From a virus, in the IMG/VR virus record IMGVR_UViG_3300027906_000009, positions 1 through 64,000 of that record: 64,000 bases of DNA. One strand, given 5' to 3'. The notes under the pieces were generated by a model. The model was not told the origin of the DNA. It was given only the letters and a program-made list of their open reading frames with translations, and did not search any database. Of the stretch, positions 5,078 to 59,240 are shown piece by piece (the first letter of the stretch is position 1; every line of letters begins with the position of its first letter). The position numbers and the translations under genes were made by a program.

Positions 5078-8000
5078 TTAATCGTCAAATTCAGCACCAG
5101 TGCTTGTGATTATGAAATCAACTGCGATGAACTCTATTGACCTTGCAGGCTTCAAGAATATCTTAGCGTACATAATATTTCTGTCTACTAAATCTGGGGT
5201 TGTTGTGCTCTCGTCTAATATAACTTTAAAGTCAGACAACCCAAATCTAACCTTTACATCTTCTAACAATGGAACTACTTGTCCAGTAAACCGAGACCAA
5301 GTCGATGGAACGTTTTGGTCGAAAAGAAGATTGCTACAAATTCTTGAAACTTCTTTTTTGATGAAAATTAGAAGCCTTCTAACATTAATCCTGTCAAGAG
5401 CGGACTGTGTAGATTGGAGAGTCTTCTGTCCAAAAACTACGATTCCCTCGGAAACAAAAGATGCGATCGGATTTATGTTTGCTTCATATAGGGTGTCCCT
5501 ATCTTTAGACATAAGCTGTTCCGAGGTCTGCAAGACCGGCAACCCTGCGTTTCCTTGATTGAGCCCACCTCGATTGAAGCCGGCTGGGGCGAACCATACA
5601 GCATCTCTCTGTTCTGTATATGCCATAACACCCAAAGCAATAACTGATGGTGGTACCCAAACGTCTCTTGACGATCTGGTATCTCTTATCTTCAACCAAG
5701 GATAATAAGTTGTCCCATAAGAAGAATTAATTTGTCTTTTCACTAAAGCTGCAGCGGATAACTCAGGTGTAGTGCCGTCGACTCTATCCTTAAAGTTCGT
5801 ACACTTTCTTTGAGAAGGTGGAACATATACATCTGGAAGGTCGATAATAGCTAATGAGTCTGCTCTTGCTTCGCATGTATTGACTAACTTTGTAGTCAAG
5901 GATGTGTTTGTTATTCCTGGCATCGCTGCTAAATTGTGTTCTACTACTTCTGCATCCCTTATTAATTCTATTGCCCTGTCGACCGAAGCATATGCATAAG
6001 AGGTTGCTGATGTTTTACCTTGTAGCACATCATTATTGAAAGGATTTGCTTCAGTAATGTTTGTTCCATCGAAGCCGCCCAAGAGAGGCATATGAAAGCC
6101 CTTGATTATGTTTAATAGTGGCCTTAAAGAGCCCCCGTCATTGTCAGCTAACACTGCAGAATATGAAGTGCCTCCGCCATCCACAAAACCTGTTCCTGTA
6201 ACTGTCGCTCCAGTAAAGTTAGTTGCATTGATAGAAGTTTGGCCTGCAATGCCGACAACGTCCTGGGTCAGAGTTAATACTGGACCTACAGCCAAAGCGG
6301 TGAGCGCTTGATCTGTTTGTGCGTTAATAACTGTGGCCAACCTATTAACAAAAGCATTCAAGTCGGCAAGTGCGGCGCGGCCGACTCTAAAGCGGCCGCT
6401 GCTATCTTTACTACCATCGGAATGGTTCTGGCCGGCGACAACTATATATGTTCCGGAGACCAAATTTGCATCCGTCAAGATCAATGTGTCATCTCCATCT
6501 GGAATCGCTGTAAAAGTTATTACTGCCGTAGCGTTTCGGCCAGTCTTGGAGCCGCGTTTCCAAACAATATCACCAACATCTGAATTTCTACTTATATTTA
6601 AAACTGTTGTTCCCGCGTCCTGGGCCTGTTGGCTTAAACTCACAACCACTTCATCCATTGAAAATGCCCAAGAATGTTCTGATAGGGAACCATCCGCGAC
6701 ACCATCGTCTTGGTCTGTAGCTAAGCCATTTAACTCTGACATTCTTCGAGTATGATCAACATACCCTTCATTTATTTGTTCTGTTGTTGTCCACTCACCT
6801 AGGCGAGCGCCACTCTTGCGTGAGAGCAAGTATGGCGTTGCTCCAAGATAAAATTGATCGTTCAAGGATCCACTACAAACGGATGGGAATTCAGGCCACT
6901 GGAAATTAATTGAACCAGAAGAAGATTGTGAAAGATGAATTTTGCCTTGCAAAAAGCCTCCGGCAGCGTTGACACCAGAAGCTGTAGATCCGTTGACAGA
7001 AGCTGATGCTTTCTTAGGTTGTACTGGACCGAAGAAACCAAACGGTATCAAAGATTTATTAGGTAATCCATTCGACTGGATATCTGCATCAAGTTGAACT
7101 CTTATATATTCTGAAATATTTGGATTCGATTCTCTTAATTTGTTTCTTTTTTCACCTGAATGCCATTCAAAATACTGGTCCCCTATTGCTTTTGCGATAA
7201 AGTTGTCGGATTTAGGATTAAGATTACACCTATCAAACCTTTCTACTTCTACTAACCTACCGGTGCCGTATTCTATTCTTTTAACAACAACACTAAACTC
7301 GCCGTATGGGTCGAGTGCACCTTCGCGGGCAACTTTTATATCTTCTATTCCAACTATTACGTTTCTTGAAGCTTCAGAGCCCTCTTGTAACGCCACTAAT
7401 CTAAATAATTTTGTATTGTTTGTTGCATCAAATACACCCGCGTTTCTTGATGTATCTTGGGCTATAACCCAACCAGTACGACCTTCGCCGAGTTGGTGTT
7501 TCGGCCCTCTGTGCCCCTCCATGCCAGAGGCTAGTTTCATTATGACGGCTGTTCTTTTAACACCAGAGGAGCCTGACATTCTAGCAGTTAACTTAGATGC
7601 AGTTTCCTCGAACGTTTCTCCTAGCCAATACTTACTTGCTAGTGAGGCTGCAGTTGGATTTGCAATGTTGTCGTTTGACATGACAGGATTCGTGTTAAAC
7701 TCTTCTCTCATTTCTTCTAGCGATGAAACAACATCTTTCGTTGTTGAACCATCAGTTAACTGAAACGTTACTCGGTTCTGAGAACTGAAATGCACAGGGG
7801 TTCCTGGGTTTGCAGTTATTATATTTGACCCTGATGTATTTTGACCTCTTAGTTTAACGCTGAATGATCCCGTTGTTCCATAAAAAATTGCTGCAAGGTC
7901 TGCGGTTTGGGCCGATGGTGGTGTTGCTGAACCTGAATGTGTAAAAACGAATAAACCGTATGCATTACTAGCGGCCCAGCCGGCTTCTGAATTTGGGACT

Positions 8001-8347: not shown

Positions 8348-8391
8348 GCTTAACATCTCCTTATGAGGATAAAATAATTGTTATTTTACTT

Positions 8392-8400: not shown

Positions 8401-8425
8401 TTTTTCTTTCTTGCAATGGAAAGAA

Positions 8426-12313: not shown

Positions 12314-12325
12314 CAATCTGAAGAT

Positions 12326-14352: not shown

Positions 14353-15978
14353 TTACCCTACAAAGATATAATTTGGAACCTTCTCGAGTACTTTTTCAGT
14401 ATTTTCGAGCATATTCGCATCTTGCTCAGCCATCTTTGTATATGTAAGCTGAGCTAGAGTTTCTTTCAGTTCATCTCTAAGTTTATTTTGCTCTTCTTTT
14501 GCTTCTGATAGCAATGCAGTGCCATTTAGTGTTACTGCTTCTCCTGGAATCGGAACTGAACTGAACTTAGAACGAACTTGTCCCAGCGTTTCTTTGCATA
14601 ATGCTAGTGCAAACCGGCGGATCCACTGCTTTCCTATAGAATTTATGTTTTCATATGGCAAATTCCCAATAGGTAGCGTATTCATGTTATTAACACCGTC
14701 TACTGATTTGTCATCTTCACTCTCCCAGACGTCTTCGGGTATTGAGAATTCAACCCACATCTTGCGGGGACCACCTGTATAAGGTATCGGACTAAGCCTT
14801 ATCTTGTTATTTCTCAATTCATAAGAAAAGTGCGACATTCTAGTGTATATCGCATCTTCGAAAGCCATTGCTTGTGCTTTGTTCTGCCAAGCCGGTATTA
14901 ACTGAAAGGTTGAATCATCAGAAAACTGTCCATAATTGTGTAGATTCCCAACAACGTTTAATCCACCATAATAACCAAAGAATCTCCACATTGCATGCGG
15001 AGTTTTATAATACACTTTCTTTATTAATATTTTTCTGCCGGCAATATCCTTAGAAGTGTAGGGATAAGTAATACCTCCAGAGAAATTTGACTTACTCATT
15101 CCTGCGTCGCCGGCGTCTGTCAAAGTTATATCCGTGTTTCCAGTAGACCCAGGAGTAACTTGTGTGATAGTTACCACGGAACCACTAGCAGAAGCTTTGA
15201 TTTTAGTGTTTAGATCTAAGACAGTGGCCAAATTTGTTGCTGCTGCCTCTTTTGATCCACCAAGTATAAACGTAACATTGTTTTTATCAGTTGTATCACT
15301 TGAAGCTGCTACCTTTGCAACAATCTCCGTTTTATCTGCGGCAATAATTTTAATTTGATCATCATTTGCAAGTTTTGCTATATCTGTTATTGTAACCGAA
15401 CCTGTTGCAACAATTTGGCTTTGTGACGTTATAATTTGTTGTAGGTCGTACTCTTGTTGCGGAGGGTTTACATCAAATGACGCAGAATATTGCACGGAAC
15501 TGTTTAAGCCAATCTCTGAAGCTAGACCCTCTCCTACTCGTCGGGCCATGCTGTAGTCGAACTTTGGATATTTTAAGGCCACATGGGAGCCTGACAGGCT
15601 TCCACTTAAAGAACCACTCATCAGAACACCCTTTGAGTCAAAGGATCCTGTAGTGTTGCCAAGAGCGTCTGATAGCACATTTGTTGCTTGGTGTAAATTA
15701 ACTATATATGAATACTCAAGCACTGCTTCCTCGTACGCAGCATAAACATTTCCTTGTGTTATTTCTAAATCTAAAATATCTCCCCCAAGTTTCTTATAAA
15801 CATAGGAAACTTGATCCACAGCACCCGAAAGAAACTGACTAGAGTATAAAGAAGAATTTTCATCTGAATAAATTTTATATGGCACAGATTGATTAACCAA
15901 ACTGTTTTGGTCTGAACCTGTCATTGGTAGCACAATTGCTGATAATGTGCTTTTTGGTGTCAATGTAGGTTTGTACAT
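14353..15978 (-). CDS. Neck protein, gp13-like, with an inserted beta domain
   Basis: A 541-residue protein. The first 110 residues (VSYVYKKLGGDILDLEITQG, VYAAYEEAVLEYSYIVNLHQ) and the last 200 (MWRFFGYYGGLNV, then RRFALALCKETLGQVRSKFS, IPGEAVTLNGTALLSEAKEE) are helical and typical of connector proteins of T4-like phages from water. Between them, about residues 180-305, lies a beta-rich insertion with VTITQVTPGSTGNTDITLT, the shared module seen in several other virion proteins. T4 gp13 has 309 residues; the insertion explains part of the difference. GAGGG precedes the ATG. It is likely to bind the portal-filled head together with the next gene's product. Confidence 0.55.
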   Translation of the reverse strand: MYKPTLTPKSTLSAIVLPMTGSDQNSLVNQSVPYKIYSDENSSLYSSQFLSGAVDQVSYVYKKLGGDILDLEITQGNVYAAYEEAVLEYSYIVNLHQATNVLSDALGNTTGSFDSKGVLMSGSLSGSLSGSHVALKYPKFDYSMARRVGEGLASEIGLNSSVQYSASFDVNPPQQEYDLQQIITSQSQIVATGSVTITDIAKLANDDQIKIIAADKTEIVAKVAASSDTTDKNNVTFILGGSKEAAATNLATVLDLNTKIKASASGSVVTITQVTPGSTGNTDITLTDAGDAGMSKSNFSGGITYPYTSKDIAGRKILIKKVYYKTPHAMWRFFGYYGGLNVVGNLHNYGQFSDDSTFQLIPAWQNKAQAMAFEDAIYTRMSHFSYELRNNKIRLSPIPYTGGPRKMWVEFSIPEDVWESEDDKSVDGVNNMNTLPIGNLPYENINSIGKQWIRRFALALCKETLGQVRSKFSSVPIPGEAVTLNGTALLSEAKEEQNKLRDELKETLAQLTYTKMAEQDANMLENTEKVLEKVPNYIFVG

Positions 15979-35337: not shown

Positions 35338-36522
35338 TCAAAGATCTATGCTCATTTTAATCATAAAATCTTTTTTTTCAACTTTTTTTATAGGATTTGC
35401 CAAAGAAACAACTGCTATCAAATTTTTGTTTTTATCATATATTCCTACTTTGGAAATATAGGTTTCTCCATCATATTCTTCTTCATACTCTTTATACAGT
35501 GATTTGTTTATTTTTTTTATATTCCTCCTTCTTTCTACATAATGAGAACCAGAAAAGGAATAATTTGATGATGATAGATATTCTAAATAAGTTGGGTTCA
35601 AAGAATAGTTCTCTTCGCTTTTTTCTGCGTATGCATACATTGTAAGAGAAGGTATTTTATTTACACCATTTGCGGTGATTGTATATGATGAAGAAGCAAT
35701 ATTTTTGTGAGCAATGGCTGTACCCACCTGCCTCACTCCTGTCCCAAAATTATTCCAACTTGGAGAAGATAAGGAAGAATTAGAATAAAAATAATCAGTA
35801 TAACTAGAATGCAAAGAAGAGCTAGAATGCAACATTATTATTCCCTGATTGTACAAAATAGTTCCCACTGTCTGGCCAGAAGTAGAACCAGAAGTCTGTA
35901 TTAATCTACCATCCTTTTTTATATCAGCAGCCTCTGCTAGCAGCGCGCCTGTCAAGTGATATTTTAAATTAATAGTACCTCTCTCTAATTTAGAACCATA
36001 TACAATACCGGGAATACAAATTAAGTTCAGTTCAGATTGTTTAATTTGATCGTAATTATTGTGATAGTTAAAAGGTACCTGGGTTTTCAAGGGATTATTA
36101 AGAGCCACTATATATTTTTTATTGGAATGGGGTAAGCCCAATGAGGAACTAAAAATGGGCCCGCTTGGTATATATATTCTAGACAAAGAAGAAGTTACAG
36201 GATAGGACTGGGTCATCGTTGAGCCATATGCAAACATTGATAGGTCGTCGAACTGACTTGTACTAACGGTTCGATAAGCGTGACGCGTACTGGTCTTTTC
36301 TATAAAACCATGAACCATTGAGCCTGATGGTCGATTTATATTTAATTCATGAAGGCTAACTTCTCCCTGAGATATATGCTTAATAGTATTAGAAAAATCA
36401 CCTTGTAAATTTTTTTCTTCTTGATAATATACTGAACCGCTGTGAACTATATAATTAATCTCTGGTTTCGTCAAGACAGTATTATAAACTAGGTCTTTCT
36501 TTTCGAAACTTTTAAAAGACAT
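35338..36522 (-). CDS. Virion protein, paralogue of the next upstream protein
   Basis: A 394-residue Ser/Tyr/Asn-rich beta protein with no signal peptide. Its C-terminus (YISKVGIYDKNKNLIAVVSL ANPIKK...MIKMSIDL) matches in layout the C-terminus of the neighbouring 481-residue protein (YVTTVGLYSADNELLAVAKL SEPLRK...LRVRLDF). Both also share an FSHG/ISQGE-type segment and a long Ser-rich middle. Two bases separate the genes. The C-terminal pattern is common in baseplate or appendage proteins of aquatic T4-like phages as I recall. No function can be assigned. Confidence 0.65.
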   Translation of the reverse strand: MSFKSFEKKDLVYNTVLTKPEINYIVHSGSVYYQEEKNLQGDFSNTIKHISQGEVSLHELNINRPSGSMVHGFIEKTSTRHAYRTVSTSQFDDLSMFAYGSTMTQSYPVTSSLSRIYIPSGPIFSSSLGLPHSNKKYIVALNNPLKTQVPFNYHNNYDQIKQSELNLICIPGIVYGSKLERGTINLKYHLTGALLAEAADIKKDGRLIQTSGSTSGQTVGTILYNQGIIMLHSSSSLHSSYTDYFYSNSSLSSPSWNNFGTGVRQVGTAIAHKNIASSSYTITANGVNKIPSLTMYAYAEKSEENYSLNPTYLEYLSSSNYSFSGSHYVERRRNIKKINKSLYKEYEEEYDGETYISKVGIYDKNKNLIAVVSLANPIKKVEKKDFMIKMSIDL

Positions 36523-36523
36523 T

Positions 36524-37969
36524 TTAAAAGTCCAAGCGAACGCGGAGGGTCAATTCATTAGTTGGATCTTTTCTGAGGGGTTCTGACAACTTAGCAACGG
36601 CTAATAACTCATTATCTGCTGAATATAGCCCAACTGTTGTGACATAGGATCTTGGGAGATTAAGAATCTCATTTGTGCCCGGATTAGTTTTAACCCTAAT
36701 TTTACTTCCTGTTAAGTATGTTGGGTTGGAACTATAATTAAATTCTGCGTTGTTTGCTCTACAAAAATAAATTGTAGAATTCAATTCAGTTGTGTTGTTA
36801 AAAGATATATTTTGGACCCTTCTCCTTATTCCATCTGCAAAGTTATCAATAGTTGCTTTCTTTAAAACATCGGAAGCAGAAGATGTAGCATTATTCATTA
36901 TTTGTGCTGCACTTGGAAAAACTGATGGGTTCAATACTGCGACTCCGGCTTGATAGTAGATCAAACCAACACTTCCAGCGTCAACGCCGCCTATAAATGC
37001 TCCATCTGCATCATTGGCTCCGCCATTGATACTCATACCTGAGAGTCCATTAGCGATCGCGGTGTTACCGGCGGCACCGGAGTGTTTCTGGGTGATTGTC
37101 ATCTCGTATGGGCCCGAGGATCCTCCGGGTCGAGTCACAGCGCTGACTGTTACCAAGTCTTTAATAGTGGCATTTGCTTCTATTCTAGCCTTCAAGTTCG
37201 ACAGGCCTGCGTCAGTGCCTCCGCGGGCGAAAGTATTACCAGTATTGGAGGAGTTGTGAGTAGTGAAGACCTCGGCTGCTTGCAGCGTCCCATCTGCTTT
37301 GAGTACAATGAAAGAAATTGTCTGGCCGGCGCCTGAGTCATTTTGAGAAGATAATGTTGCCGACGCGGCCTGAGCGGTGGCTTTTAAAATGCCATATTCG
37401 CCGGCAGGGGAGTTAATTTTATATGAATTAACTGCGTCTGAGTCTGAAATAGTAGAGATTGAATTGAAAGGAGATGCATAAGTTGTGTTCGTTCCAACTT
37501 TCATAGAAAAGCTACCCTTTTTAATCTCATCTTTTACAAGCAGTCTTGAAAAATTTAAAAATATAACATCATCATGTTTAGTGCCGCCTGTACCAGAAAA
37601 GTCTCCATCAGCGTCAAATCTTCTAATTTTAGAATCAGTATCAAAACCGACTAAAACTTGCGCCATTTGATTATATATATTTACTTTTTTTGATACTTGA
37701 GAATTTGCTGAGCTAGAAACAGATGCTGCATTTGTACTGAATCCTGCTGAAATATCAAAAATATGGTTTGCGGAAGAGCTTTGGTATGGGTAATCATATA
37801 CTGACTGGAACATTCCATGAGAAAAACTTTTTATATTGATCTCTCTGCCGGATGATGCTGCTGCATATGTTCCTGCTAGTAACGTTCCTGTAATTGGTAT
37901 GCTTTCATGCAAAAGCGTTCTTGATGTTGTTTTGTCTCTTTGTGTTAGTGGTTTAAACGAAACTGCCAT
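36524..37969 (-). CDS. Virion protein with inserted (I)TQ...GNT module
   Basis: A 481-residue protein: N-terminal KPLTQRDKTTSRTLLHESIP, Ser/Ala-rich strands, and a module at about residues 195-330 that includes MTITQKHSGAAGNTAIANGL. The C-terminal domain carries YVTTVGLYSADNELLAVAKL and ends LRVRLDF. It is paralogous at its end to the 394-residue neighbour, which lacks the module. AGGAG precedes the ATG. Location among structural genes and beta composition indicate a virion component. Confidence 0.65.
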   Translation of the reverse strand: MAVSFKPLTQRDKTTSRTLLHESIPITGTLLAGTYAAASSGREINIKSFSHGMFQSVYDYPYQSSSANHIFDISAGFSTNAASVSSSANSQVSKKVNIYNQMAQVLVGFDTDSKIRRFDADGDFSGTGGTKHDDVIFLNFSRLLVKDEIKKGSFSMKVGTNTTYASPFNSISTISDSDAVNSYKINSPAGEYGILKATAQAASATLSSQNDSGAGQTISFIVLKADGTLQAAEVFTTHNSSNTGNTFARGGTDAGLSNLKARIEANATIKDLVTVSAVTRPGGSSGPYEMTITQKHSGAAGNTAIANGLSGMSINGGANDADGAFIGGVDAGSVGLIYYQAGVAVLNPSVFPSAAQIMNNATSSASDVLKKATIDNFADGIRRRVQNISFNNTTELNSTIYFCRANNAEFNYSSNPTYLTGSKIRVKTNPGTNEILNLPRSYVTTVGLYSADNELLAVAKLSEPLRKDPTNELTLRVRLDF

Positions 37970-46287: not shown

Positions 46288-49200
46288 TTAACTTTCTTTC
46301 TCTTTAATATATGTAACGCTTATTGCGTCGCTGGTGCCGATCGAATCCACAAAAGTCACAGTGTTTCCGGAAATGGTATAATCGTTTCCGGTACCTGAGG
46401 TTTGTAAAACTCCGTTAAGATAAATAGATTCTGTTCCACTTTTTATTCTAAAACCGGTTCCAGGGTTGACTGTGATTGCATTGCCAGATGGTGCTGCGGC
46501 GCCGGATGCCTTCATTTGATGTCTAAATATCATATTGTCGAGTGCTAAAAATTTAGTCGCATCAACTTCAGATTGACCAGTTTGGATATTATCAAGAGCT
46601 TTGGGCGATAATTTGATTTTATTCTGTATGTCGTCTAATAAACTTAACTCAAATTGTGGCGCTATAGGCTCAGGCGCCTCCTGAATATCTCTTGAGAAAT
46701 AATCAACTTTAGAGTCTATCTTTATCATCTCAATTATAGAGAAGAAATCATAAGGCCAATTGTATGAATATTTCGAAAATATCTCTCTATCTCTTCTGAT
46801 TGTTGACTGTACAGTTTTACCTCCAAGTTCTTGGGCCCCCGAAAGGTCAAGTATATCTTCCCTATTTTTTGAAATAGAATCTTTTATAACATTGACGTAA
46901 TCCGACTCTGCCCTATATTTAACTTTAAAGACTAACCATCTTACTTCTTTTTCTAGAAAAAGTTCGGGATTTTTATATATTGAACCTTTTCCTTTGAACA
47001 GATTATCAACATCTGGCAATACTATGCTAGAAATATATTCTACATCTGTATCTATTTCACTCTGGAGAACTCTAGAATGTTGTGCAACTGAAATACTCTT
47101 TCCACTTTCTGGGTAGAGATTCTGCCACAAGTGGGAAAGATCTTCTTGTCCTATTTCAGCTTTAAATTGAAAAATATATGATACAAAAGGATCTACATCA
47201 TCGTTTTTTATAAAGTCAAATTGTGGCGGAAACACATATTTGTCCATCATTCTTAACTGATAGGCTATATTTTCTTGTGCTAAAATTCCAGGATTTTCAT
47301 AAAATGATTCATACGATTCTTCTACTAATTCTGTTTCTTGGTCATTTGATGACAATCTTAAAGCATCAAGAAATTGCTGCTTTTTAAATGAGTTGTAATT
47401 TCTAGATTCTGCTAAAGATGACGGATCCATATCGAAAAACCTCAGTTCACATTCGTCTTCAAGGTAATACGGTATTGCCACTACGGCCTCACAAACTCTT
47501 TTCTTAGATGCTAGTCTTCCTAATTTATATTTTCTAGAAGGGTTTGCCTCCTGTGGGACTGAATATGCATAATTGTAAGTGTCTCTAACAAAACCAACTG
47601 CTGAAGCTAAGTCTCCCACACTAGTCTTTCCGTCGTCTCTGGCGCCTAAAATAGTTAGATAGTAACCTTTTCCTTCGTTTGTGGGCAGCTTTTCGCCATA
47701 TTGGTGCCACATTCCCCTTGATGCTGTTAAATAAGGAGTACTTGAACTGTTGAATTCTTGATAATAGTTTGTTTGGTTTCGGGTTTTCCATGGGGACCCT
47801 GAAACTTGATCTACCTGGTTGGTGGTTAAATTTAACGCGGAGACCTTATTATTTGAAAAATCCATAACTGGCGTTTCCCATCTTGGGTGTATTACCCATC
47901 TGTAATTAGCCGGGCCGTCTTGTTGGGAGGAGGTAGTTTTGCCCGGGGATCCTTGAAAATTATAATTATCTGCCGCTAGGCTTACATATCTTGTTAGATT
48001 TAGACTGGCTGAAACCACCATCGATTCTTTAAAATTAGTATTAGTTGAGGCATTATTTGGTGATTGCATATTTGTATATGTAACACTCATTCCGTTAATA
48101 ATTTCTGGTATTGTATACCTTCTTGTTTCCGAAGGAGTAAAAGAAATCTCCGCATATGGATCTGTGTTTGGGTCTAAATATGGTGGCACATATGGCAAAA
48201 ATCCATGTGAGCCCGACGTTGCGGCCTTTGTCTCCGTTAAAAAATCGACCTTTGATGGCAATACTGAGGCGCCGCCTGCAAAACCTGTTTTTCGGTTGGT
48301 CGAGTCCGTGGTGCCAAACTGACCACCAGTGCCTGATATTGTAGTATTTCCCGCATCTCCTGATTCAACTTGTGTTAAAGTTATTATATCTGTAGAGGTT
48401 GAGTAATTAGCTGTAATTAAGTTTTGGTGGCCATTTGCATGCCCTATGGCTGTTGCAAGTGAAGTACCTATTTGGTCAGGCGTATTACCAGAGGAATAGG
48501 ATCCTAATGCCACTAAAATGTTACCTGAACTATCTGTGTTTCCTGTTCCGAAAGTTGTACCTGATGTGCCATTTGAAAATCCTGCGATACTTAAACCTGC
48601 TGAAAAATTTGTTGCTATAGCATTGTTGCCTGCTGTGCCGGCTGTTGCCTGGGTTAGTGTCAACTTTCTGGATCCATCATTTGAAACATTAATTGTGTTG
48701 TTATGGCCATTTGTACTCTCTATTACAGTTTCAGCTTGGGCAATGACTGAATGCATTCCAGTTGACATACCAAAAACTTGTATTTTAACCCTGCCGCTGC
48801 TGTCTGTTTGTCCACTGGTACTAAAGGTGTCATGTACAAAAATATATGTTTTTTCAGTTGGAGAAGACTGTGCGTCCTTCAAAGTAAAGGTTGCGCCGTT
48901 TAGATCACTAGCTTTACTTACTGCGGTTGCTATTTCTATAGTAGCAGTGGCAGCGACTGCTGCGGTGTCTAAGACAAACTTATAAGTTTTTGTTTGACTG
49001 TTTGTTGACTGTAGAGTTACTGTATTATTGTTAAGCGCGTTTCGCCAGTCTGGGTCATTTCCAGAAAGAGATGATGGTACAGACATGTCGAGCGAGCCTG
49101 ATGCTGGAGTCCCAGGAACAGTTGTTGTTTCTGGTGTATATGTAGCTATTTCCGGGGTGCTTTCATCCACCGGTGGCCCGAAAGCAGAGTGCCTGTCATA

Positions 49201-52200
49201 CATCACTACATCATTATTAGTAATATAAACCCTCATTTTGTAGACAACTCCATTGTTTAATAGTGGACTAACTGGTTGTGATATAGCAGTCTGTAATTTT
49301 TCATCTTCTAAGAAAAATTTAACTGTTTCCGAAGCAAAATTACCAATTGCGCTCTTATACGGTAACATTGAGTTTACAAAACCTTGATATGTACTAGAAA
49401 AATTTATTGCGTTATTTGTGATAGTTTTTTGCCTATTCAAGGTGCCAAATGTAGGAGGATACTCATTAACCTTTAAATATTCCCTTGTGCCATAAAAAAT
49501 ACTGGCGCTTGGGTGTGGTTCATTATCAGGAACTATCTGGTTGTATAGCCTCTCGGGATATAAAAGATCATCAAAATTTACTCTCCTGGATGTTTCCCCT
49601 TTTAATCTTGGTATACCTGAATCAACAGTATTATTTATCAGAGAGCCCGTATAGCAAACACTTGATCCCAAACTCGCTCCATCAAAATTTCCAATAGGTA
49701 TATAAACTTTACTGTTGACCAAATAATTTTCAAAAGCTCCGTCAGTCGAGGAAAATAGAGGATAATCAACTGCAAGGCCAGATTTAATAGAATTAAATAA
49801 AACACCTGGTGCTAGGAGCGGCTTTGAAACTTTAGATTTTGTATTCTCTATCTTCAAATCTAACAGAGCCAGTGCAGTACCCTCTGTTATTTGTGTGTTA
49901 GATATATAACTGGCGTTATAAGAGCCTGATTTTAAATAATTTCTGTGGAAAATTTCTGATACTTGGACTGCACGTTCTGCAGGATACATTCCCCTATATG
50001 GCAAAAATCTTTTTGCTGCAGAGCATTTTAGTGTTAATTTGCCAGCGAATAAATCTACATTTTGATTATCTAAATTTTCCTGAAATGGTTGAAAATATTT
50101 CATAAAATCAGAAGTAGAATATGTTTTAAAAAATTGAGTCCCTATCGATATATCACCCGATGATGAGTGATAAATCGCTCCTGTCAAATGTAAAAAGTCG
50201 TCTGTAATGGTAGGATTATCCAAATCCGAAGAAGCATATATATCTTCTATATATTTACTTATTGTAAATTCTGGTATTATAGAATAGTTTTGACCTACAA
50301 GTCTAATTTCTTCTGCATATTTGTCGTAAGAATCGTAAAACGGTCCGATTTTGTTGCTTGAGGTTGCTTCCCACAATGATTCTCCTGCCAAGAATTCGTC
50401 GGATCCGAAAATTTGCGGGATTCTTCTGTTATAGATAGGTGCAAATGGGGGGGCGCCTCGCAAGAAATTATTTCCAAGTGGAAAAATACTATAATCATTT
50501 TGTAAAATTCCTTCGTTTCTTGTAGCCTGATCTCGATTGTTCGAGAATTGGGTCCCATCATTAAAGAAAGATGATGTAATGCTGATTGGTTTAGTAGAGA
50601 AATCACTTCTAGAATCCAAAACCCATTTACTTGTTTTAATCATGGACCTACTATTTTCAGAAGCAAACGGATTATAAGTCATCTTATGGCTCATGAGGTC
50701 GACCATTTCATAGGTTCCAAAATAATCTTTTTGAAACTCTTTGTGGTTAATTATTTGGGTTGGCTGTAAAAATAACTTTTGATCATAAGCTGATTGGCTT
50801 ACTAAATAATCTGAATAATTTAAATTTCCTGTTAAAGCTAGAGATCTGTTTGCAAGTTTAGAGTCCCATCCAAAAAACTTAAATTTTTCTCTAGTTCTTG
50901 CATTTTTTGTATATGTATTTATTTCTCTTGGATATATCGTTTCTAAATAATTTAGTTCTGTTTTGTTATATTGTCCCCTGATTAGGTCTAATCTACCTAT
51001 CGTGTTATTTAGTATTTTTAAATTTTCGTGATCTAAAAATGGCTCTTCTTCAAACCTTATCAGGTCTGACATCTCTTGATTTGCGAATCCTGTAATGTTA
51101 TTTTGTAATGGCAAACTAAGTGTGAAACTTGGCATTAATTGTATATTTTCTCGAGATGAAGCCCTGTACGCTTCTAGTACAATCTCATGAAAAAACTGGT
51201 CGAAATTCCACATCGACTCAAGTTGACGCTGGTTTAAGTTCCTAGCTTGATTGTCTCCTAGAAACCCAAACAACTGGCCGGATTCATAAGTATGTATACT
51301 TAAACTAAGCGGCTTGTATTTTGAAGTGGCCATAACTTCTTTAAAGTTAGTAATGCTCCTAGGCTTTGCAAAAGTTCGATTGTCTTCTTCTGTCCTGGAG
51401 TAATCAAATTGATACCCCTGCCTGTGTGATGTAAATGGCACCTTTGATGTGAACACCGCTGAAAATATATTGTTTTTCTTGTGAGCCCTGGATATGGCGT
51501 GCTGGGATCCTCTTATTTGTTTCCACGATGGCCAGCCGTATGGGCCTTGGCGGTTTAATATTATAGAATTTAATGTTGATGCATCCCCAAAGAAACCAGA
51601 TGCTGTTCGAATTGAATTTTCCGGGTTACCGCGGTGCATAGTATCAGGATTAATAAGGTTATTTACAAAATCTTGTTTGGTACCAGTAAAAATCTGATCC
51701 GTGCCGAGTGTGTTTGTATTTATAGACAAGGGTTCCAAAACAATTGTATTTAAATTCACAAAGTCAACAGGCGTGAACGTGCCGGCTGTGAATGAAGCAT
51801 CCTCTGCGCCGTAAATTTGTGTTGCACCTCCGAAGGTGCCGGCGCCGAGTTCACTAGATGCCAAAAAAGTTATACTTGACTCTGATTTTATACCGGCAGC
51901 ATGCTCATAGGTGTGTTGATGTCCTGAATTGCCATTAAGTCTTGTAAAGTTCAACGGCAGGAGCGCAGAAGCGGTGATCCACAGGTATCCAATATCAGTT
52001 TGAGGTATCTCATGTTGTACGAATAAATTATCTGGCTTGTAATAAATATCTCCCGTCATGCTCGGACTCAATGGGCCGGACATAAACCTTCTATAATTTC
52101 TATTAGTTTTATGTATTGACGCTTGAGTTGTAGAACCCGAACGGTACCCAAACCGTTCAGAATATTCTGAAGATAAATTATTAAGAACCCCTCTAACCAG

Positions 52201-55200
52201 AGTGTTTCTGTAATTTATTGTACTGTATACTGAAAATTCCTCTGCTTCTCTATCCAAACCATACTTTCCGGATGTTTCGGGGCCGCCCGGTGGGGAAAAT
52301 CTATTTACGAAAACATGTTCTCTTCTTGTTCTATCTGGTACGAAATGGTTTACTGTGCCTATTATATATTCTGATTTATTAAGAGATCCTGTTAAATTTT
52401 TACCTTCTTGTTCTACTAAATAATTATTATTATTTGTTCTGCCGGCTGTTTGCACTATTTCATAATCTTTGTGATAATTTCCTTGCTTAATTGGGTCTGT
52501 GGAAGCTTTTATGTTGGCCATGCTATAAAGTCTACTAGATTCTATAGGACTATGAAACATGGTACTATACCTATCTGAAGTTTCGATAGTAAGTGAACTG
52601 GTAGTTTCTGATATTTTATATGCTTCGATTCTTTCTAAAGTTTGCCCTATTTTGTTTTTTCTGTGAGGGGGCCTAACATCAAGAAAATCAGGCTTATTTA
52701 TTTTTAGCGAATCTCCCATAAAGTGGTTATTCGTTATTTTTAATTGTGTTTTAAACTTGCTAAAGTCTGTGCCGACTGAAGAACTGTATAAAGAAAAAGG
52801 TAATACAAAGTCTGCATCTGCATTATTATAATCCTGAATGCCAGAAACATTAGTTTTTGATGTATATCTTTCTTTTTGAATTGGTCTCGTGATGTCATCG
52901 CATTGTTTAAACTCATATATATCATCTGATGATATTGTTATATTTGTGTTATTTTGATATATTATCTTGTAGAGATCTTCAACTTTATTGGTGTCTTTAT
53001 TATGCCCTATATTTAAAATCTTCTGCTTTGTAATTGTGTGTTTGTAGGGCCTAACTAGGTTTCTTAAAGCGTACTTTCTAAAATTGTTTCCTGGGTATGA
53101 ATTTGAGATTTTAGTGGTCAATGTATCTTTAATCTCTTTTCTCCCTGTGCTGGTGGGTACCTCTTTTCTATCCTTTTGCCATAAACAATTTTTATTTTCC
53201 TGTTGGTCGTGATGGCCATGCTCCCAATCATATAGCAGTTCATTTATTGACAACATATTAGTTTCAAGTTTTGGTGGCTTAGTATCTATTATCGCGTATT
53301 TATGGTGATATTTATTTCTTTCAAGTGCATGACTTTCAACTACATTGTGCATGCCTGTGTTGTAAATTGTCGATGCGGCCAGTGTATGCTCCACAAGATT
53401 TCCAAACGAGGCGCCTATCCATTTATAATAATTAACAAATTTTTCAAAACTAATCTCATTCTGTACATTTTCAAAATATTTTTCTTTCAAATATTGCAAT
53501 AATTTATAATTTGCTCGATATCTGTTAACTGGTTCACCTATAGCGTTATTAAGCAATTCAACTCCAGAAAAGAAACTTATCATATCTTTAGAAATCACCT
53601 CATACATGCTTTTTTCAAAAGATAGAATATTTGTTTCTGGAGTTAAAGAAAAATCAAATTTATCTACTGGGTTTTCTTTTAACTGTACTTGGTCTAAACC
53701 CTTAATGCTTGCTAATGGAGTATTTTTAATTTGGTTTATGTAATCCACATACACTATATCTGTCAACTTATTGTCAAAACCATGAGATTTAAAATCATAA
53801 TTGGTCGACAGGTCAGAATCATATATTGGAGATGTAATATCTTGTCCGGATGTTTCATCCTCAATAGTGAAATTTGCCGTGTTATTATTAGAAACTTTAC
53901 TAAAATTTATTCTAAAAAGTTTTGTGTTTTCTGATTTTATAGTTTGATCTGTGTTAATTTGTTTTGGTCTTAATTTTTGTCTTCCCCTGTGAGTGAAAGT
54001 CTTACTTCTTAATTGCAATTCTTCGTCTGTTAATTGATCCTTCCAAGCACTAAAATTGAGTATTCTTATATCGGTCTTATCTATAACTGAACCTGTAATG
54101 TTAGTCTTATTTGCTCCAATAAAAATAGTTTTATTCGCAGAGTTAAACAGATTGTAATTTGCCCTAGACAATTCTGATGTCAATGAAAAACTATCCATCA
54201 ATTTATCATCAATATAGTTGTATCCTGAAAATATAATTTCATATTTTTCAGTTCCGTGATCAATGAGTGGGCTGCTTGTCTTCTTTCTTATTCTTAGTGA
54301 TACGTTCCACCTTGAATCATCGTAGACCTTTTTCAGAAATGGTGTCTTCAAATCTTGTGATAAAAATTTACTAGATTTTAAGACAAAACGCGCTTTGGGA
54401 TCTACAAGATTTTGCTTCTCAACAATCACAGTAAAATTGGCATTGTCCGGCGAAGGTGTTACAAAATTATTTTGTACCCCAGATACCTGTTTTATACCGA
54501 AAACACTAGATGTAGATATTTCGTGCTGAGCTTCGACTCTTTTTGCAAAAATAAATGAGCCTTCAAAAGTATACTCGTTTGGCACAGTTGAAGTCGGTAT
54601 AAAACTTGAGTCGCCGGCTGATGTGTAGAATTGGTGTAAATTTGCGGAGCTATTATCTCGAAAATTTATTATTTGAACTCTTTCTGCCTTTTTTTCAGTC
54701 TTATTGTCTTTAAACGGGATTTCACCGCCCACTAGAGAATAAACATCACTAATAACGTCAGTTGAGACGCCGGCTAATTTATATATTGCAGCATACCCAG
54801 CTTCAGTGCCTTTTTTATTGAATATCGCCCTTCGATAATTTTTAATATTTTGATGTATAGTCCTTGCACTGACTTGCGTTGGTTTAGTATATCTAAGGTG
54901 GCCGGAAATTTGCTCCATCTGGTCTAGTAAGGGCTCCTCTTCCTGCAAAATCATTGATGTCATATCTGTGTCAATACCTTCATCCTCTGCTTGTTCTAGC
55001 GGTAGCCTTCCAGTATTCTGGTTTGATAATCCTGTTTGTATATACTCATCAACACAACCTACAAAGTATTTGTCCCCGTAATCTAAATAATTTTCGTCAT
55101 AGGATCCTGTAGTGTTTGTTCCCGCTTGAATCACACCGTCCCAATTGGGGCCTCTAGAGCGAAGAGTAGCATCGAGTTTATTTCTTACTTCATCAAATTG

Positions 55201-56646
55201 CACTGCCATCATTTGCAGGAGTATTTGAAATTCTCGCTTACTTTCACTGTCTTGTTCAACAAAATCCTGGCGCGCCCATTCCGGTATAAATCTTTCTAAA
55301 TTATTATTGTTCAACCTATCGTAAGCTTCTCCAATCTTTCTGGTTTTTGATATTAGTTTTTGAACTGTCTGATCTGAATTTTCTAATATCGGAGTCTGGA
55401 CTTCTGTATTTTTTGTTGCTTGTGATTGATTGATCGCTGATTCTGGTATTAGAGTATTTTCATCATATTCTCTTATTCTTCCTGTTATTTCGTTTCCAGA
55501 ATAATCAAAAACCAAACTATCTTTTTTTGTCTTGCCAATTGGTGGCTTATTGAAATTGTAATATAGGCCCATTCTAGACGTATATTCCTTATTAGAAAAA
55601 TCATTTGCAAACACTTTTTTATCAAAGTAGCGGCCGATTTCTCTATTGTTCCTAAGTCCCTTCCAATATTTGAAGTCGTCCAAAGAACCCGAAAACGAAC
55701 CGGGTGATGAGGTTGCAGTATTATCTTTTCCTATTTTTCCACAAATATAGGATTTTACTTCTGGCATTTCTCCTATTCCAGACTGCGTTACAGTCTGGTT
55801 TATCTGGCCATCTACATAAAGTTTAAATTTTAAATTATTATTTATTTTAATAGCAGAGACAGCATAATGGTGCCACTTGCCATCACCGACACTAGCAGTA
55901 GTAATTGGCTGTACTGGGTCTGCAGGGTCTCCTATTTGAATGTCTGTAGAGCCGGTTGTTGCCGTTGTATATGTGACGCGGAATGGTGAGCCGGCGGAGG
56001 CCGACAAATGAAGCTTAAACTTAGCTTGATTTTCTGGTTGAGTACTTCCTGGTAATGTACCAATATCAAAGACAACTTCTTGTTGTTTTGAAGCATTAAA
56101 CCCATCCTTTTTCATCCAAAACTCTACAGTATTTCCCTTTGAAGGACTTAATAAAACCCCTGGTTCGTCATTGCTAAGTTGTCCCAAGAATTCAATTTGG
56201 GGTATTTTTCCCGCTCCTCCATTAAATTCTATGTACTGTTTGTAATTAAATCTAACGCTGCCGACTGCGCCTGGCCATTTTTGATTGAAAAGAGCAGTAT
56301 CTAGACTTGGTGAGGTCATATACCAATCATAGTGTTCCTCTTGGGTGCCATCAAAGGGATAGTAATTAATTATGTTGTATATTGCATCTACATAATATTG
56401 TTGCGCGCTGCCATAAAACGCAAAAGTAGAAGGATCAAAAGAATTGATTGGTGGTCGAAAAGCATCCATAAAAGATTGTTGCTTTGATATCAGCGAATCT
56501 GATTCTGCCTCATTTGATAATTTATTATTTTTCTGATTTAGGTGGGCCCTATTTGATCTTTTAAAATACTCTTCTTTTCTTTTATCCGCGGCAGTAGCTA
56601 TAGTAATTTCCTGGCTATTTCCGTCTTTGCTGCTAAAATCTGTCAT
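46288..56646 (-). CDS. Giant virion protein (3452 residues) with LamG-like domain
   Basis: The largest gene here, a single uninterrupted frame. Residues about 170-345 form a LamG/concanavalin-type domain: NTVEFWMKKDG, GDGKWHHYAVSAIK, FKLYVDGQ, SGSLDDFKYWKGLRNNREI, typical of carbohydrate-binding or adhesion modules. About residues 2535-2775 hold two tandem copies of the (L)TLTQ...GN module. The last 50 residues (SIYLNGVLQTSG...AISVTYIKE) match the C-terminal module of the 1221-residue fibre-like protein. Between lie long Asn/Ser/Tyr-rich regions without recognisable family. Its ATG overlaps the stop of the 864-residue gene. A host-contact or baseplate-periphery role is inferred from the LamG domain and size. 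Confidence 0.7.
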   Translation of the reverse strand: MTDFSSKDGNSQEITIATAADKRKEEYFKRSNRAHLNQKNNKLSNEAESDSLISKQQSFMDAFRPPINSFDPSTFAFYGSAQQYYVDAIYNIINYYPFDGTQEEHYDWYMTSPSLDTALFNQKWPGAVGSVRFNYKQYIEFNGGAGKIPQIEFLGQLSNDEPGVLLSPSKGNTVEFWMKKDGFNASKQQEVVFDIGTLPGSTQPENQAKFKLHLSASAGSPFRVTYTTATTGSTDIQIGDPADPVQPITTASVGDGKWHHYAVSAIKINNNLKFKLYVDGQINQTVTQSGIGEMPEVKSYICGKIGKDNTATSSPGSFSGSLDDFKYWKGLRNNREIGRYFDKKVFANDFSNKEYTSRMGLYYNFNKPPIGKTKKDSLVFDYSGNEITGRIREYDENTLIPESAINQSQATKNTEVQTPILENSDQTVQKLISKTRKIGEAYDRLNNNNLERFIPEWARQDFVEQDSESKREFQILLQMMAVQFDEVRNKLDATLRSRGPNWDGVIQAGTNTTGSYDENYLDYGDKYFVGCVDEYIQTGLSNQNTGRLPLEQAEDEGIDTDMTSMILQEEEPLLDQMEQISGHLRYTKPTQVSARTIHQNIKNYRRAIFNKKGTEAGYAAIYKLAGVSTDVISDVYSLVGGEIPFKDNKTEKKAERVQIINFRDNSSANLHQFYTSAGDSSFIPTSTVPNEYTFEGSFIFAKRVEAQHEISTSSVFGIKQVSGVQNNFVTPSPDNANFTVIVEKQNLVDPKARFVLKSSKFLSQDLKTPFLKKVYDDSRWNVSLRIRKKTSSPLIDHGTEKYEIIFSGYNYIDDKLMDSFSLTSELSRANYNLFNSANKTIFIGANKTNITGSVIDKTDIRILNFSAWKDQLTDEELQLRSKTFTHRGRQKLRPKQINTDQTIKSENTKLFRINFSKVSNNNTANFTIEDETSGQDITSPIYDSDLSTNYDFKSHGFDNKLTDIVYVDYINQIKNTPLASIKGLDQVQLKENPVDKFDFSLTPETNILSFEKSMYEVISKDMISFFSGVELLNNAIGEPVNRYRANYKLLQYLKEKYFENVQNEISFEKFVNYYKWIGASFGNLVEHTLAASTIYNTGMHNVVESHALERNKYHHKYAIIDTKPPKLETNMLSINELLYDWEHGHHDQQENKNCLWQKDRKEVPTSTGRKEIKDTLTTKISNSYPGNNFRKYALRNLVRPYKHTITKQKILNIGHNKDTNKVEDLYKIIYQNNTNITISSDDIYEFKQCDDITRPIQKERYTSKTNVSGIQDYNNADADFVLPFSLYSSSVGTDFSKFKTQLKITNNHFMGDSLKINKPDFLDVRPPHRKNKIGQTLERIEAYKISETTSSLTIETSDRYSTMFHSPIESSRLYSMANIKASTDPIKQGNYHKDYEIVQTAGRTNNNNYLVEQEGKNLTGSLNKSEYIIGTVNHFVPDRTRREHVFVNRFSPPGGPETSGKYGLDREAEEFSVYSTINYRNTLVRGVLNNLSSEYSERFGYRSGSTTQASIHKTNRNYRRFMSGPLSPSMTGDIYYKPDNLFVQHEIPQTDIGYLWITASALLPLNFTRLNGNSGHQHTYEHAAGIKSESSITFLASSELGAGTFGGATQIYGAEDASFTAGTFTPVDFVNLNTIVLEPLSINTNTLGTDQIFTGTKQDFVNNLINPDTMHRGNPENSIRTASGFFGDASTLNSIILNRQGPYGWPSWKQIRGSQHAISRAHKKNNIFSAVFTSKVPFTSHRQGYQFDYSRTEEDNRTFAKPRSITNFKEVMATSKYKPLSLSIHTYESGQLFGFLGDNQARNLNQRQLESMWNFDQFFHEIVLEAYRASSRENIQLMPSFTLSLPLQNNITGFANQEMSDLIRFEEEPFLDHENLKILNNTIGRLDLIRGQYNKTELNYLETIYPREINTYTKNARTREKFKFFGWDSKLANRSLALTGNLNYSDYLVSQSAYDQKLFLQPTQIINHKEFQKDYFGTYEMVDLMSHKMTYNPFASENSRSMIKTSKWVLDSRSDFSTKPISITSSFFNDGTQFSNNRDQATRNEGILQNDYSIFPLGNNFLRGAPPFAPIYNRRIPQIFGSDEFLAGESLWEATSSNKIGPFYDSYDKYAEEIRLVGQNYSIIPEFTISKYIEDIYASSDLDNPTITDDFLHLTGAIYHSSSGDISIGTQFFKTYSTSDFMKYFQPFQENLDNQNVDLFAGKLTLKCSAAKRFLPYRGMYPAERAVQVSEIFHRNYLKSGSYNASYISNTQITEGTALALLDLKIENTKSKVSKPLLAPGVLFNSIKSGLAVDYPLFSSTDGAFENYLVNSKVYIPIGNFDGASLGSSVCYTGSLINNTVDSGIPRLKGETSRRVNFDDLLYPERLYNQIVPDNEPHPSASIFYGTREYLKVNEYPPTFGTLNRQKTITNNAINFSSTYQGFVNSMLPYKSAIGNFASETVKFFLEDEKLQTAISQPVSPLLNNGVVYKMRVYITNNDVVMYDRHSAFGPPVDESTPEIATYTPETTTVPGTPASGSLDMSVPSSLSGNDPDWRNALNNNTVTLQSTNSQTKTYKFVLDTAAVAATATIEIATAVSKASDLNGATFTLKDAQSSPTEKTYIFVHDTFSTSGQTDSSGRVKIQVFGMSTGMHSVIAQAETVIESTNGHNNTINVSNDGSRKLTLTQATAGTAGNNAIATNFSAGLSIAGFSNGTSGTTFGTGNTDSSGNILVALGSYSSGNTPDQIGTSLATAIGHANGHQNLITANYSTSTDIITLTQVESGDAGNTTISGTGGQFGTTDSTNRKTGFAGGASVLPSKVDFLTETKAATSGSHGFLPYVPPYLDPNTDPYAEISFTPSETRRYTIPEIINGMSVTYTNMQSPNNASTNTNFKESMVVSASLNLTRYVSLAADNYNFQGSPGKTTSSQQDGPANYRWVIHPRWETPVMDFSNNKVSALNLTTNQVDQVSGSPWKTRNQTNYYQEFNSSSTPYLTASRGMWHQYGEKLPTNEGKGYYLTILGARDDGKTSVGDLASAVGFVRDTYNYAYSVPQEANPSRKYKLGRLASKKRVCEAVVAIPYYLEDECELRFFDMDPSSLAESRNYNSFKKQQFLDALRLSSNDQETELVEESYESFYENPGILAQENIAYQLRMMDKYVFPPQFDFIKNDDVDPFVSYIFQFKAEIGQEDLSHLWQNLYPESGKSISVAQHSRVLQSEIDTDVEYISSIVLPDVDNLFKGKGSIYKNPELFLEKEVRWLVFKVKYRAESDYVNVIKDSISKNREDILDLSGAQELGGKTVQSTIRRDREIFSKYSYNWPYDFFSIIEMIKIDSKVDYFSRDIQEAPEPIAPQFELSLLDDIQNKIKLSPKALDNIQTGQSEVDATKFLALDNMIFRHQMKASGAAAPSGNAITVNPGTGFRIKSGTESIYLNGVLQTSGTGNDYTISGNTVTFVDSIGTSDAISVTYIKEKES

Positions 56647-59240
56647 TATTCCACTCTAAACCTAAATTTTTCATTTAAAATTGATTTTTGATCGCCATGA
56701 ATACAACAAAAAGAGATTTCATAAAGGTACCTTTGTTGTAAATAACTAGTGTCTAAAAGAAAGTTACAACCCCGTTCGTTATACCCAAGTCCAGAAAAAT
56801 TTACTGCACTCCCGGTTGAAAATGGCACAATCACTAAATCATCTGCAACTCTTTTTATTTGGTAATATACGTTATCGAAATAATCAGGTGATGCATATCC
56901 TGTTACTTTTGAATATACATTAGGATTACTTAGTTTATTTTTTATAGTTACATTTAATTGAGACTTTTCTCCTGATTTGTAGCTTGGTTTCAAATTTTGT
57001 ATAGATGCAATCTTGTCTATATTCACGCTTTCGCCAGAATATATATCTCTATATGATTTAACCTTAACAGGAGAATTACCACCAAAACCTCTTATATTGC
57101 CGGTATTCGAATCTAATGCTTTGGAATTACTTCCTGTTGGTATAGTCCATTTCTCATACAATGTGTCTTGAGCTATATTGTTTGATATGATGAAAGATGC
57201 TTTATAGACTCCCGTCGATTGTTTAACGCAAGTGACGTCAACTCCTGAAACTGCTTCTGAAGAGTTTCCTCTAAAATTTCTTTTTATTATTTGCAAGTCT
57301 AAGGCCGCTTTAGGAAGAGGCCATTTTACGTCAGGATCCGAATCAAATACTGATCCACTTAGTGGTAAAGATTTTAAATAAGTTATAATGTCACCACCAT
57401 TAGTGGGATCTGTTTTAGTGGTTAATGTGTCGTGTGTGTTCGATGCATTGAAAGATCCAAAATCGCCAAAGAATTTTGGAGGCTGCAGTGATGTAGTTAT
57501 GGGATTTCCCGATGCATCTGCAGTTCGGTGTAACGTAACAGAAGAATTCCAGCCATGATTGTTACCCCCTACAACTCGAGTATAAATTCTGATTTTATTG
57601 AAGCCATAATTGATTGCCCGGAAAAGATTCGAGAACCCTGGATGTCTGTTCATTGTCTCAACTAAACTTTCCGCCGTCTTAACAATATTTTCCATACCAT
57701 CAGGAGAATATGCCGGATATGCCTGGGGGTGTCGTTGGATATGCCTCATTGCTCTTGCTCTACTTGCAAAGTTACGCTGTTTCAAGCCGATGGGATAAAA
57801 ATAAAAAGAAGTAGTTTCCAGCGTTAAGGGATTATAGTAAGATACTATGACTATACCAGAACCAGTATTTTGACTATTACCTCCAGTTGCCTGATCGTAT
57901 GCTGATGTCTCTAAAAGAGTTAGCATCTCGAATTCAGCATAAGCATTTTTTAAATCATCAGCCTCACTGTTGGATGTTGTATATACCGTATTATCTAGTA
58001 CTATTGAGACGTGTTCTGACAAGCCTTTATCTGTCGTCAATGCAAATTTTGGAATTGATGGTAGGTCCACTAGTTTCCCATTTATATAATTGTGATAGTA
58101 AAGGTTGTTTGTGTTTTGTGCATTTGTAAGCTTAGGGTCAGCAGTAACAAGTTTTCCTCTATCATCAGTAATCCTAGAATCCCACTGTGCCTCTATTACG
58201 GGCCTCTGGAAATAATATTCCGATTCTCTTGCCGAAAACTTCTTTGTGAAATATGATTTTTTTAAACTTCCGTCTTCGAAAGATCCAGAAAGCTTAATTA
58301 AAAAGCCATTGTTTTGAATCCCTGCGCCGCCTGAAAAGTTAACAACAACAGATGCCATATTTTTTGTTATTGTCGTGTTTCCGTAATACCCTTTATGCTT
58401 CTGGGTTATATTTACCTTTAATGGGTCGCTTCCATCAATTGCTCCGGAAAATATAGTGTTGAATGCTGAACTATCGAATAAACCTTTAAATTTTCCCACC
58501 ACTGTTGATATATTGTTACTACTAACATCTAACAAATGTGTTTTGTCAGTTGATCCAGAAGTGTTAGCAGTTTGTACTATTCTGTAGTCGCCATTAGTGG
58601 CGCGGAATTTCAGTGTTTCACCAACGGGTGGCACGGTACCAAATTTTACAGATCCGGATGCTGCAGAAAAATAAGAGCTTTCTTGTGATTTGATATACTC
58701 TTCAATTATTGGCGTCACATTGATGCTCAAATCTTCTAAACCGGTATCGAAAGTTTGATTAAATTCTACTGGAATTGTAGCGCTATTCATCTCTTGTTTT
58801 ATAGGTATCGATGCGCCTTCGGTCGCCCAAGAGAGGCCGGTATCTCTATATTGCCAGTTACAAGTGTCCAAGTCCGAAAACTCTTCCATATCTAAGCCTA
58901 ATCCCTCCCTCCAAGATTCAAGAATCGGAATGGCTGAAATGGTAAAATTTTTAGGTATTGTATTCCCATGTTTTACATTAAACAAATTTAAATTAAATTG
59001 AACTGAAGATGATGCTGGTATCAAGTTTGAGGTTCTATTTGCGGTTATTTCAGTTATAGGAAATTGTACTAAAATTCTGGTTTTTTCTATTGATGAAGTA
59101 GTGGCTTGACCATAGACAGAATAAATTTCTAGAACGTCAGATGCGCCCATGTTCGATAATTTACCAGTCTGGGACATACCGCTTTTGAATGCTGTTGTGA
59201 TAGTGTTATCTTTATTTGCTGTGTATCTTTTTATGGCCAT
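56646..59240 (-). CDS. Virion protein with DNRLRE-like start and (I)TQ...GNT module
   Basis: An 864-residue protein. The N-terminus AIKRYTANKDNTITTAFKSG, SNMGASDVLEIYSVYG and KTRILVQFPI resembles DNRLRE-type beta-sandwich domains (a-D-N-t-I, N-x-G, L-x-V, R-x-L-v-x-F). Near residues 225-315 sits the shared module with VNITQKHKGYYGNTTITKNM. The region near residue 500 (MRHIQRHPQAYPAYSPDGME) is helical; the C-terminal part is beta-rich with Ig-like features (KSYRDIYSGESVNI, SQLNVTIKNKLS). It is coupled by TAATG junctions to the gp6-like gene before and the giant gene after. Structural, probably on the baseplate. Confidence 0.65.
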   Translation of the reverse strand: MAIKRYTANKDNTITTAFKSGMSQTGKLSNMGASDVLEIYSVYGQATTSSIEKTRILVQFPITEITANRTSNLIPASSSVQFNLNLFNVKHGNTIPKNFTISAIPILESWREGLGLDMEEFSDLDTCNWQYRDTGLSWATEGASIPIKQEMNSATIPVEFNQTFDTGLEDLSINVTPIIEEYIKSQESSYFSAASGSVKFGTVPPVGETLKFRATNGDYRIVQTANTSGSTDKTHLLDVSSNNISTVVGKFKGLFDSSAFNTIFSGAIDGSDPLKVNITQKHKGYYGNTTITKNMASVVVNFSGGAGIQNNGFLIKLSGSFEDGSLKKSYFTKKFSARESEYYFQRPVIEAQWDSRITDDRGKLVTADPKLTNAQNTNNLYYHNYINGKLVDLPSIPKFALTTDKGLSEHVSIVLDNTVYTTSNSEADDLKNAYAEFEMLTLLETSAYDQATGGNSQNTGSGIVIVSYYNPLTLETTSFYFYPIGLKQRNFASRARAMRHIQRHPQAYPAYSPDGMENIVKTAESLVETMNRHPGFSNLFRAINYGFNKIRIYTRVVGGNNHGWNSSVTLHRTADASGNPITTSLQPPKFFGDFGSFNASNTHDTLTTKTDPTNGGDIITYLKSLPLSGSVFDSDPDVKWPLPKAALDLQIIKRNFRGNSSEAVSGVDVTCVKQSTGVYKASFIISNNIAQDTLYEKWTIPTGSNSKALDSNTGNIRGFGGNSPVKVKSYRDIYSGESVNIDKIASIQNLKPSYKSGEKSQLNVTIKNKLSNPNVYSKVTGYASPDYFDNVYYQIKRVADDLVIVPFSTGSAVNFSGLGYNERGCNFLLDTSYLQQRYLYEISFCCIHGDQKSILNEKFRFRVE

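Follow-up and report, generated by a model that had tools for sequence, protein, structure and literature searches.

The DNA analysed here (the window) comprises bases 1-64000 of the 91,314-base IMG/VR virus record IMGVR_UViG_3300027906_000009. It carries the gene set of a T4-like myovirus, with genes for the tube, the sheath, a gp13-like adaptor, a gp23-like major head protein, the portal, the large terminase and a gp6-like baseplate wedge. The closest isolates by sheath and capsid, namely the Flavobacterium immuto phages, Microcystis Mel-JY01 and Rhodothermus RM378, are distant. In a 1032-aa ORF at 29750-32848 (minus strand), residues 1-343 match the SbcD family and residues 285-1027 the SbcC family; the ORF is apparently a one-gene fusion of both nuclease subunits, the counterparts of T4 gp47/gp46.

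Six copies of one domain, referred to here as the module, are found in five minus-strand ORFs of 1092, 541, 481, 864 and 3452 residues, with two copies in the largest (Table 1). The 481-aa, 864-aa and 3452-aa proteins (p481, p864 and the giant protein) are putative virion components, as judged from their gene neighbourhood.

Table 1. Copies of the module and the genes that carry them, in window coordinates.
Feature	Position	Strand	Evidence
Tail sheath gene	5078..8356	-	phrog_23 tail sheath, E 1e-62; PF17482
Module in tail sheath, sheath residues ~608-730	6167..6535	-	profile E 7.6e-25; sheath model residues 610-722
Gene for gp13-like head-tail adaptor	14353..15978	-	phrog_211, E 1.4e-10
Module in gp13-like neck/adaptor protein	15067..15408	-	profile E 1.7e-33; AlphaFold2 model of 15061-15417, pLDDT 95.9
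Gene for 481-aa putative structural protein (p481)	36524..37969	-	ORF; no Pfam or PHROG family match
Module in p481	36977..37372	-	profile E 4.0e-16
Gene for 3452-aa giant protein, two genes downstream of gp6-like wedge	46288..56646	-	ORF; homologues of 3124-5031 aa
Partial second module in giant protein, in tandem	48265..48555	-	profile positions 34-125, E 2.5e-10
Complete module in giant protein	48556..48954	-	profile E 5.7e-19
Gene for 864-aa protein (p864), directly downstream of gp6-like wedge (59240-61066)	56646..59240	-	ORF; wedge matches baseplate wedge PHROGs
Module in p864	58317..58664	-	profile E 4.9e-15

The repeated unit spans about 113 residues; in the second copy of the giant protein the first hairpins are missing. 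The original prediction had listed six motif strings in these genes, all of which lie no more than a few bases from the positions given for them, and had proposed that one domain recurs in several otherwise dissimilar tail and virion proteins. This proposal is borne out by a non-circular HMM trained on 51 modules from other phages, with the window sequences left out. Applied to the window ORFs, the HMM recovers all six copies with E values from 1.7e-29 to 1.4e-6. More specifically, the neck adaptor scores 1.7e-29 (whole protein), the sheath 2.5e-16, the two copies of the giant protein 6.3e-12 and 2.9e-10 (domain scores), p481 1.2e-8 and p864 1.4e-6. None of the other ORFs scores among the 339 scanned, and 30 shuffles of all 339 gave zero matches. 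In pairwise BLASTP among segments of ~105-135 aa, the best E value was 1e-6 and the longest alignments covered ~125 columns, as compared with 16 residues for the motif. The similarity therefore spans the whole domain and not the short motif alone. No further copies were found in the rest of the 91,314-base record, and a profile scan of the ORFs showed the module to be absent from the major head protein, portal, tube, terminase and replication genes of the window phage.

Chance similarity of short Thr/Gly-rich motifs could be suspected from the composition of the modules, which are rich in T, S, G and A, and from single-sequence tblastn searches with four modules or consensus sequences, which gave no match at E 0.1 among 50,697 phage records, where the low-complexity filter may mask relatives. 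This explanation has a negligible probability: it is ruled out by the full-length profile matches with their shuffled controls, and is further contradicted by a confident common fold and by DNA-level identity between genes.

The fold was predicted with AlphaFold2 for the neck copy on an alignment of 56 modules, which gave a compact domain with a pLDDT of 95.9 and a pTM of 0.89. It has nine or ten short strands plus a single helix, which precedes the core motif. The module had been described beforehand as beta-rich, and this description stands for the compact domain as a whole, to which one alpha-helix has to be added. In a model of the full sheath (pLDDT 85), the strands and the helix of residues 610-722 follow one another essentially as in the neck module, in agreement with the expectation of a common fold; the two models are not fully independent because most sheath modules are in both alignments. 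The residues Q, G, G, F and G are near-invariant across the modules. They include no catalytic-type residues, and an enzymatic nature of the domain was rejected on this ground.

Structure comparison placed the module close to the outer insertion domains of contractile sheaths, with Z values of 9.6 for A-1(L), 9.1 for PhiTE, 8.8 for Milano and 6.6 for XM1. The outer domain of the Mu sheath aligned with a Z of 8.2 and an rmsd of 2.6 over 98 residues, and the sheath-type matches overall ranged from Z 6.6 to 9.6 over 82-102 residues. Tail proteins of the T7 type contain a matching domain at Z 8.1-10.2 (P-SCSP1u 8i4m_A, Z 10.2; T7 6r21_a, Z 8.3), the outer domains of flagellin and FliD match at Z 5-7.6, and predicted structures of phages RcTitan and PhiJL001 also match by fold. 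Fold Z values of 8-10 are moderate and gain weight because the sequence profiles agree. In hhalign, the modules matched a set of eight Mu-type sheaths with a probability of 93.5% and an E value of 2.3e-7 over 44 columns, which cover the core motif only, while controls with other regions of the same sheaths, reversed or column-shuffled profiles reached E 0.025 or worse. The core motif common to the modules and the Mu-type sheath domain reads A..L...IN....TA...VTLT...G..GN. A profile comparison of phrog_165 with the modules gave a best E of 1.5e-4.

These profile matches support a remote homology of the module with the outer domain of Mu-type sheaths, and the module shares its fold, and probably its descent too, with the outward insertion domain of Mu/XM1-type sheaths. 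From the residue range 100-217, we read the module as the counterpart of domain III of the Mu sheath, which extends outward (PMC11915804). The insert of the XM1 sheath has been described as similar to a FliD domain (PMC10457771), and a survey of 112 sheaths found added domains to sit away from the tube (Evseev et al. 2022, PMC9230969).

Searches against known families returned little beyond this relationship. The family PF17481 (Phage_sheath_domII) matched one of the 56 modules at E 0.0065, below its curated cut-off, and none of the window modules. Flagellin_IN (PF07196) gave zero matches in the window phage and in two module-rich records, while control genomes do match. A profile search of PDB sequences yielded weak sheath matches alone (E 0.24 and 1.6). 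No Ig family was among the significant matches to any module, as expected from the original prediction that the module differs from known Ig-like domains in sequence, and antibody chains were matched weakly by Foldseek (E 0.4 or worse, TM about 0.35).

The closest known system is thus the outward insertion domain of Mu/XM1/Milano-type sheaths (Mu domain III, XM1 InD; phrog_165; cf. PF17481), which resembles the module in fold, core motif, profile and insertion into a sheath. However, that domain is a fixed part of one sheath lineage, whereas the module is a separate sequence family that has moved between unrelated genes and sites. The insertion-type domain of T7 gp12-like tail (nozzle) proteins shares the fold and is fixed in one podovirus protein family, its likeness to the module being known from the fold alone; the likeness to outer flagellin/FliD domains (Flagellin_IN) is likewise one of fold only. 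In its behaviour, the module is comparable to phage Ig-like domains, which are promiscuous in many virion proteins, horizontally exchanged and proposed to bind surfaces weakly (Fraser et al. 2006, as cited in PMC9230969). It is promiscuous and exchanged among virion proteins as they are, but these domains appear to have another fold and sequence; the likeness is one of behaviour, and a kinship, if any, would be very distant. In the multi-domain tail sheaths surveyed by Evseev et al. (PMC9230969), a conserved sheath core likewise bears additional domains remote from the tube. The comparison made there is one of folds among sheaths, whereas here a single family is followed at the DNA level through several virion genes.

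The strongest evidence for exchange and transfer comes from the DNA, in which copies of the module in otherwise unrelated genes are closely similar. Module DNA of a giant protein matches that of a sheath with 86.4% identity over 338 bp, and in a further match with 86.7% over 345 bp; a giant protein and a ~418-aa protein share 90.7% identity over 343 bp. The edges of the DNA matches coincide with the domain borders, at the better-matched ends mostly to within 2 bases. Flanks and codons were compared in five pairs with the correct frame (an out-of-frame sixth pair was left out): identity in the 60-bp flanks beyond the cassette is 22-40%, roughly what unrelated sequences show, and 72-86% of the codons for shared residues are identical. 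This high codon identity indicates that these transfers are fairly recent. The contigs are environmental assemblies in which single junctions may be chimeric, but the junction pattern recurs in many contigs and chimeras are therefore unlikely for the pattern as a whole. Judged by sequence comparison, the domain moves as a DNA cassette of ~340 bp that coincides with the domain edges. The cassette encodes the domain alone, with no recombinase or endonuclease gene, and neither a target-site duplication nor a common flank motif was seen in the six pairs read. A mobile element with its own recombinase, such as a homing element, an intein or a DGR target, was rejected for its lack of an enzyme of its own and of a target-site duplication.

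The neck adaptor and the sheath document gain, loss and exchange among close relatives. Relatives of the neck adaptor fall into two length classes of about 540 and 419 residues, and the module is absent in close relatives: the necks most like that of the window outside the insert (~82% identity) have no module, and module-bearing necks are 67-81% identical. Relatives with and without the module interleave on both the neck and the sheath tree. The neck flank tree requires at least 7 presence changes, of which strongly supported branches force 4, and the sheath tree at least 14, with 9 forced.

In 79 sheaths, modules occur at ~607-725, ~458-466, ~175-182, ~260-266 and ~306-313 in window numbering, with a sixth site near residue 145 in one sheath (L183, placed by eye). 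Relatives lacking the module have 11-30 residues at the window insertion site. As had been anticipated for surface loops, the insertion sites fall at loops or element edges of the predicted sheath model, in which 46% of the region is loop; taken alone, this placement is a weak indication. Sister sheaths provide a closer view. L097, with a module, and L113, without one, are 97.7% identical in the C-terminal part, and their DNA turns identical shortly past the 3' edge of the insert. In the pair L089/L101, flanks that are 86-96% identical enclose modules of 28% identity, and in L142/L143 a C-terminal part of 97% identity accompanies modules of 56%. With alternative sites, swaps between sisters and cross-gene DNA matches, the suggestion of an exchangeable insertion cassette holds. 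At most one module per sheath was observed; few double-module sheaths are expected by chance, and mutual exclusion is therefore not claimed.

Other inserts and repeats were seen in and beside the sheath. One sheath (L067) carries, at about residues 100-200 of the window sheath, an extra ~180 residues not recognised by the module profile, perhaps another kind of insertable domain. The 1221-aa protein that adjoins the window sheath (8494-12159, minus strand) contains long near-identical internal repeats and, over short stretches, strongly matches tail-fibre proteins from Pelagibacter and Roseobacter phages. In sheath-adjoining ORFs of relatives, a module that is divergent or incomplete occurs around residues 230-400, and the window 1221-aa protein has none.

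Positions also vary in the other carriers. Homologues of the giant protein have modules elsewhere, near window residues 722, 1146, 1340, 1415, 1435, 1530 and 1650, and a p481 homologue (in G002) has its module at ~92, compared with ~200 in the window. The site in p864 homologues is mostly common, with a tandem pair in G002, and vertical inheritance may suffice there. Peptide patterns from p864 found no relatives among viral_contigs, and relatives were found in whole records. In some proteins of other contigs (L192, a 3408-aa frame, L225 and similar loci), modules, complete or partial, follow one another in tandem, with five or more in the longest arrays. By eye, the N-terminal part of the window giant protein appears LamG-like (EFWMKKDGF...WHHYAVS), without a Pfam or PHROG match. 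The C-terminal parts of p481 and its 394-aa neighbour (together 35338-37969, minus strand) are paralogous, with ~27% identity through homologues.

If an ancestral domain had been common to all host proteins and lost many times, ancient vertical inheritance would account for an old fold that is resident in Mu-type sheaths and for the mostly single position in p864. We nevertheless consider this history very improbable, as it does not accommodate 86-91% DNA identity with abrupt ends between unrelated genes, the use of alternative sites, or unrelated modules in near-identical hosts. The cross-gene DNA matches, if genuine, exclude it as a general explanation. One narrow subtype of the module occurs in 76 ORFs, which BLAST divides into about 16 host groups, the sheath, giant and p864 families among them; these groups are set apart by BLAST only, and a few may be remote relatives or pieces of one giant gene. 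A search of 84,980 prokaryote species genomes did not find the subtype, so that no prophage or cellular source is seen for it. At least one copy of the module is carried by 18 of 24 records searched, with up to 8 per record, in a sample drawn by similarity to the window phage in which counts are not population frequencies.

Overall, we have good confidence that the module is one independently folding domain, probably kin to the Mu/XM1-type sheath domain, which is mobile as an in-frame cassette among tail genes and phages. The sequences show that the ~113-residue domain is carried between genes and phages as an in-frame cassette of ~340 bp. This cassette enters, leaves or is exchanged at probable loops of tail proteins, among them the neck adaptor, the sheath and proteins of the baseplate cluster, and the protein that receives it remains whole. 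As the pairs read showed no recombinase, repeat, target duplication or flank common to several sites, we infer that the route is ordinary illegitimate or short-homology recombination of phages. Many copies displayed along the tail could then form an exchangeable surface decoration that adds weak contacts to the host surface.

Surface decoration with weak multivalent binding to the host surface is the function we favour, although tentatively and with somewhat less than even confidence. The original prediction had likewise considered a decoration that might bind the cell surface or polysaccharides. Within the window phage the modules lie in tail proteins, and the head shell, portal, tube and terminase are free of them, a distribution that points to such a surface decoration. 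Surface exposure and dispensability are suggested by the loop positions, by natural absence in close relatives and by published sheath structures.

The next choice is a structural cement, in which the module would stabilise the tail or baseplate via neighbouring subunits and its variability would reflect tolerance rather than host binding. A stabilising effect on the virion has been suggested for additional sheath domains (PMC9230969), and the module sits in proteins of repeated rings such as the sheath and neck. We think this role rather unlikely, since six sites in one sheath fold, loss between 97.7%-identical sisters and swaps of 28%-identical modules fit a conserved interface badly. A low probability is also given to near-neutral cargo, a domain spread by recombination into surface loops that tolerate folded inserts, with no selected function. 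Patchy presence, many sites and fast turnover would agree with such cargo, as would conserved residues that look structural, with no functional ones beyond. Yet the copies are in frame and keep their fold at 20-30% identity, a single genome may have as many as 8 of them, and in the window phage their carriers are proteins of the tail exterior rather than products of head, portal, tube or replication genes.

Returning to the favoured decoration, large T4-like environmental phages may maintain a still-moving pool of one ~340-bp cassette that continually redecorates the whole tail exterior, from the neck over the sheath to the baseplate, with borders set by the protein fold and not by a recombinase; we rate this extension as somewhat less likely than not. 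Neither the fold nor the concept of promiscuous virion domains is novel. The spread of the sheath-type fold as a swappable cassette appears to be new, and in the open-access literature we found no description of such a cassette invading unrelated tail genes at many sites with DNA-level borders. A known sheath fold moving between non-homologous virion genes provides direct sequence evidence for the origin of multi-domain phage tails, and ties a mobile family to the outer domains that are fixed in tail proteins of the Mu, XM1 and T7 types. The natural pairs with and without the module offer material for testing the function of such decorations.
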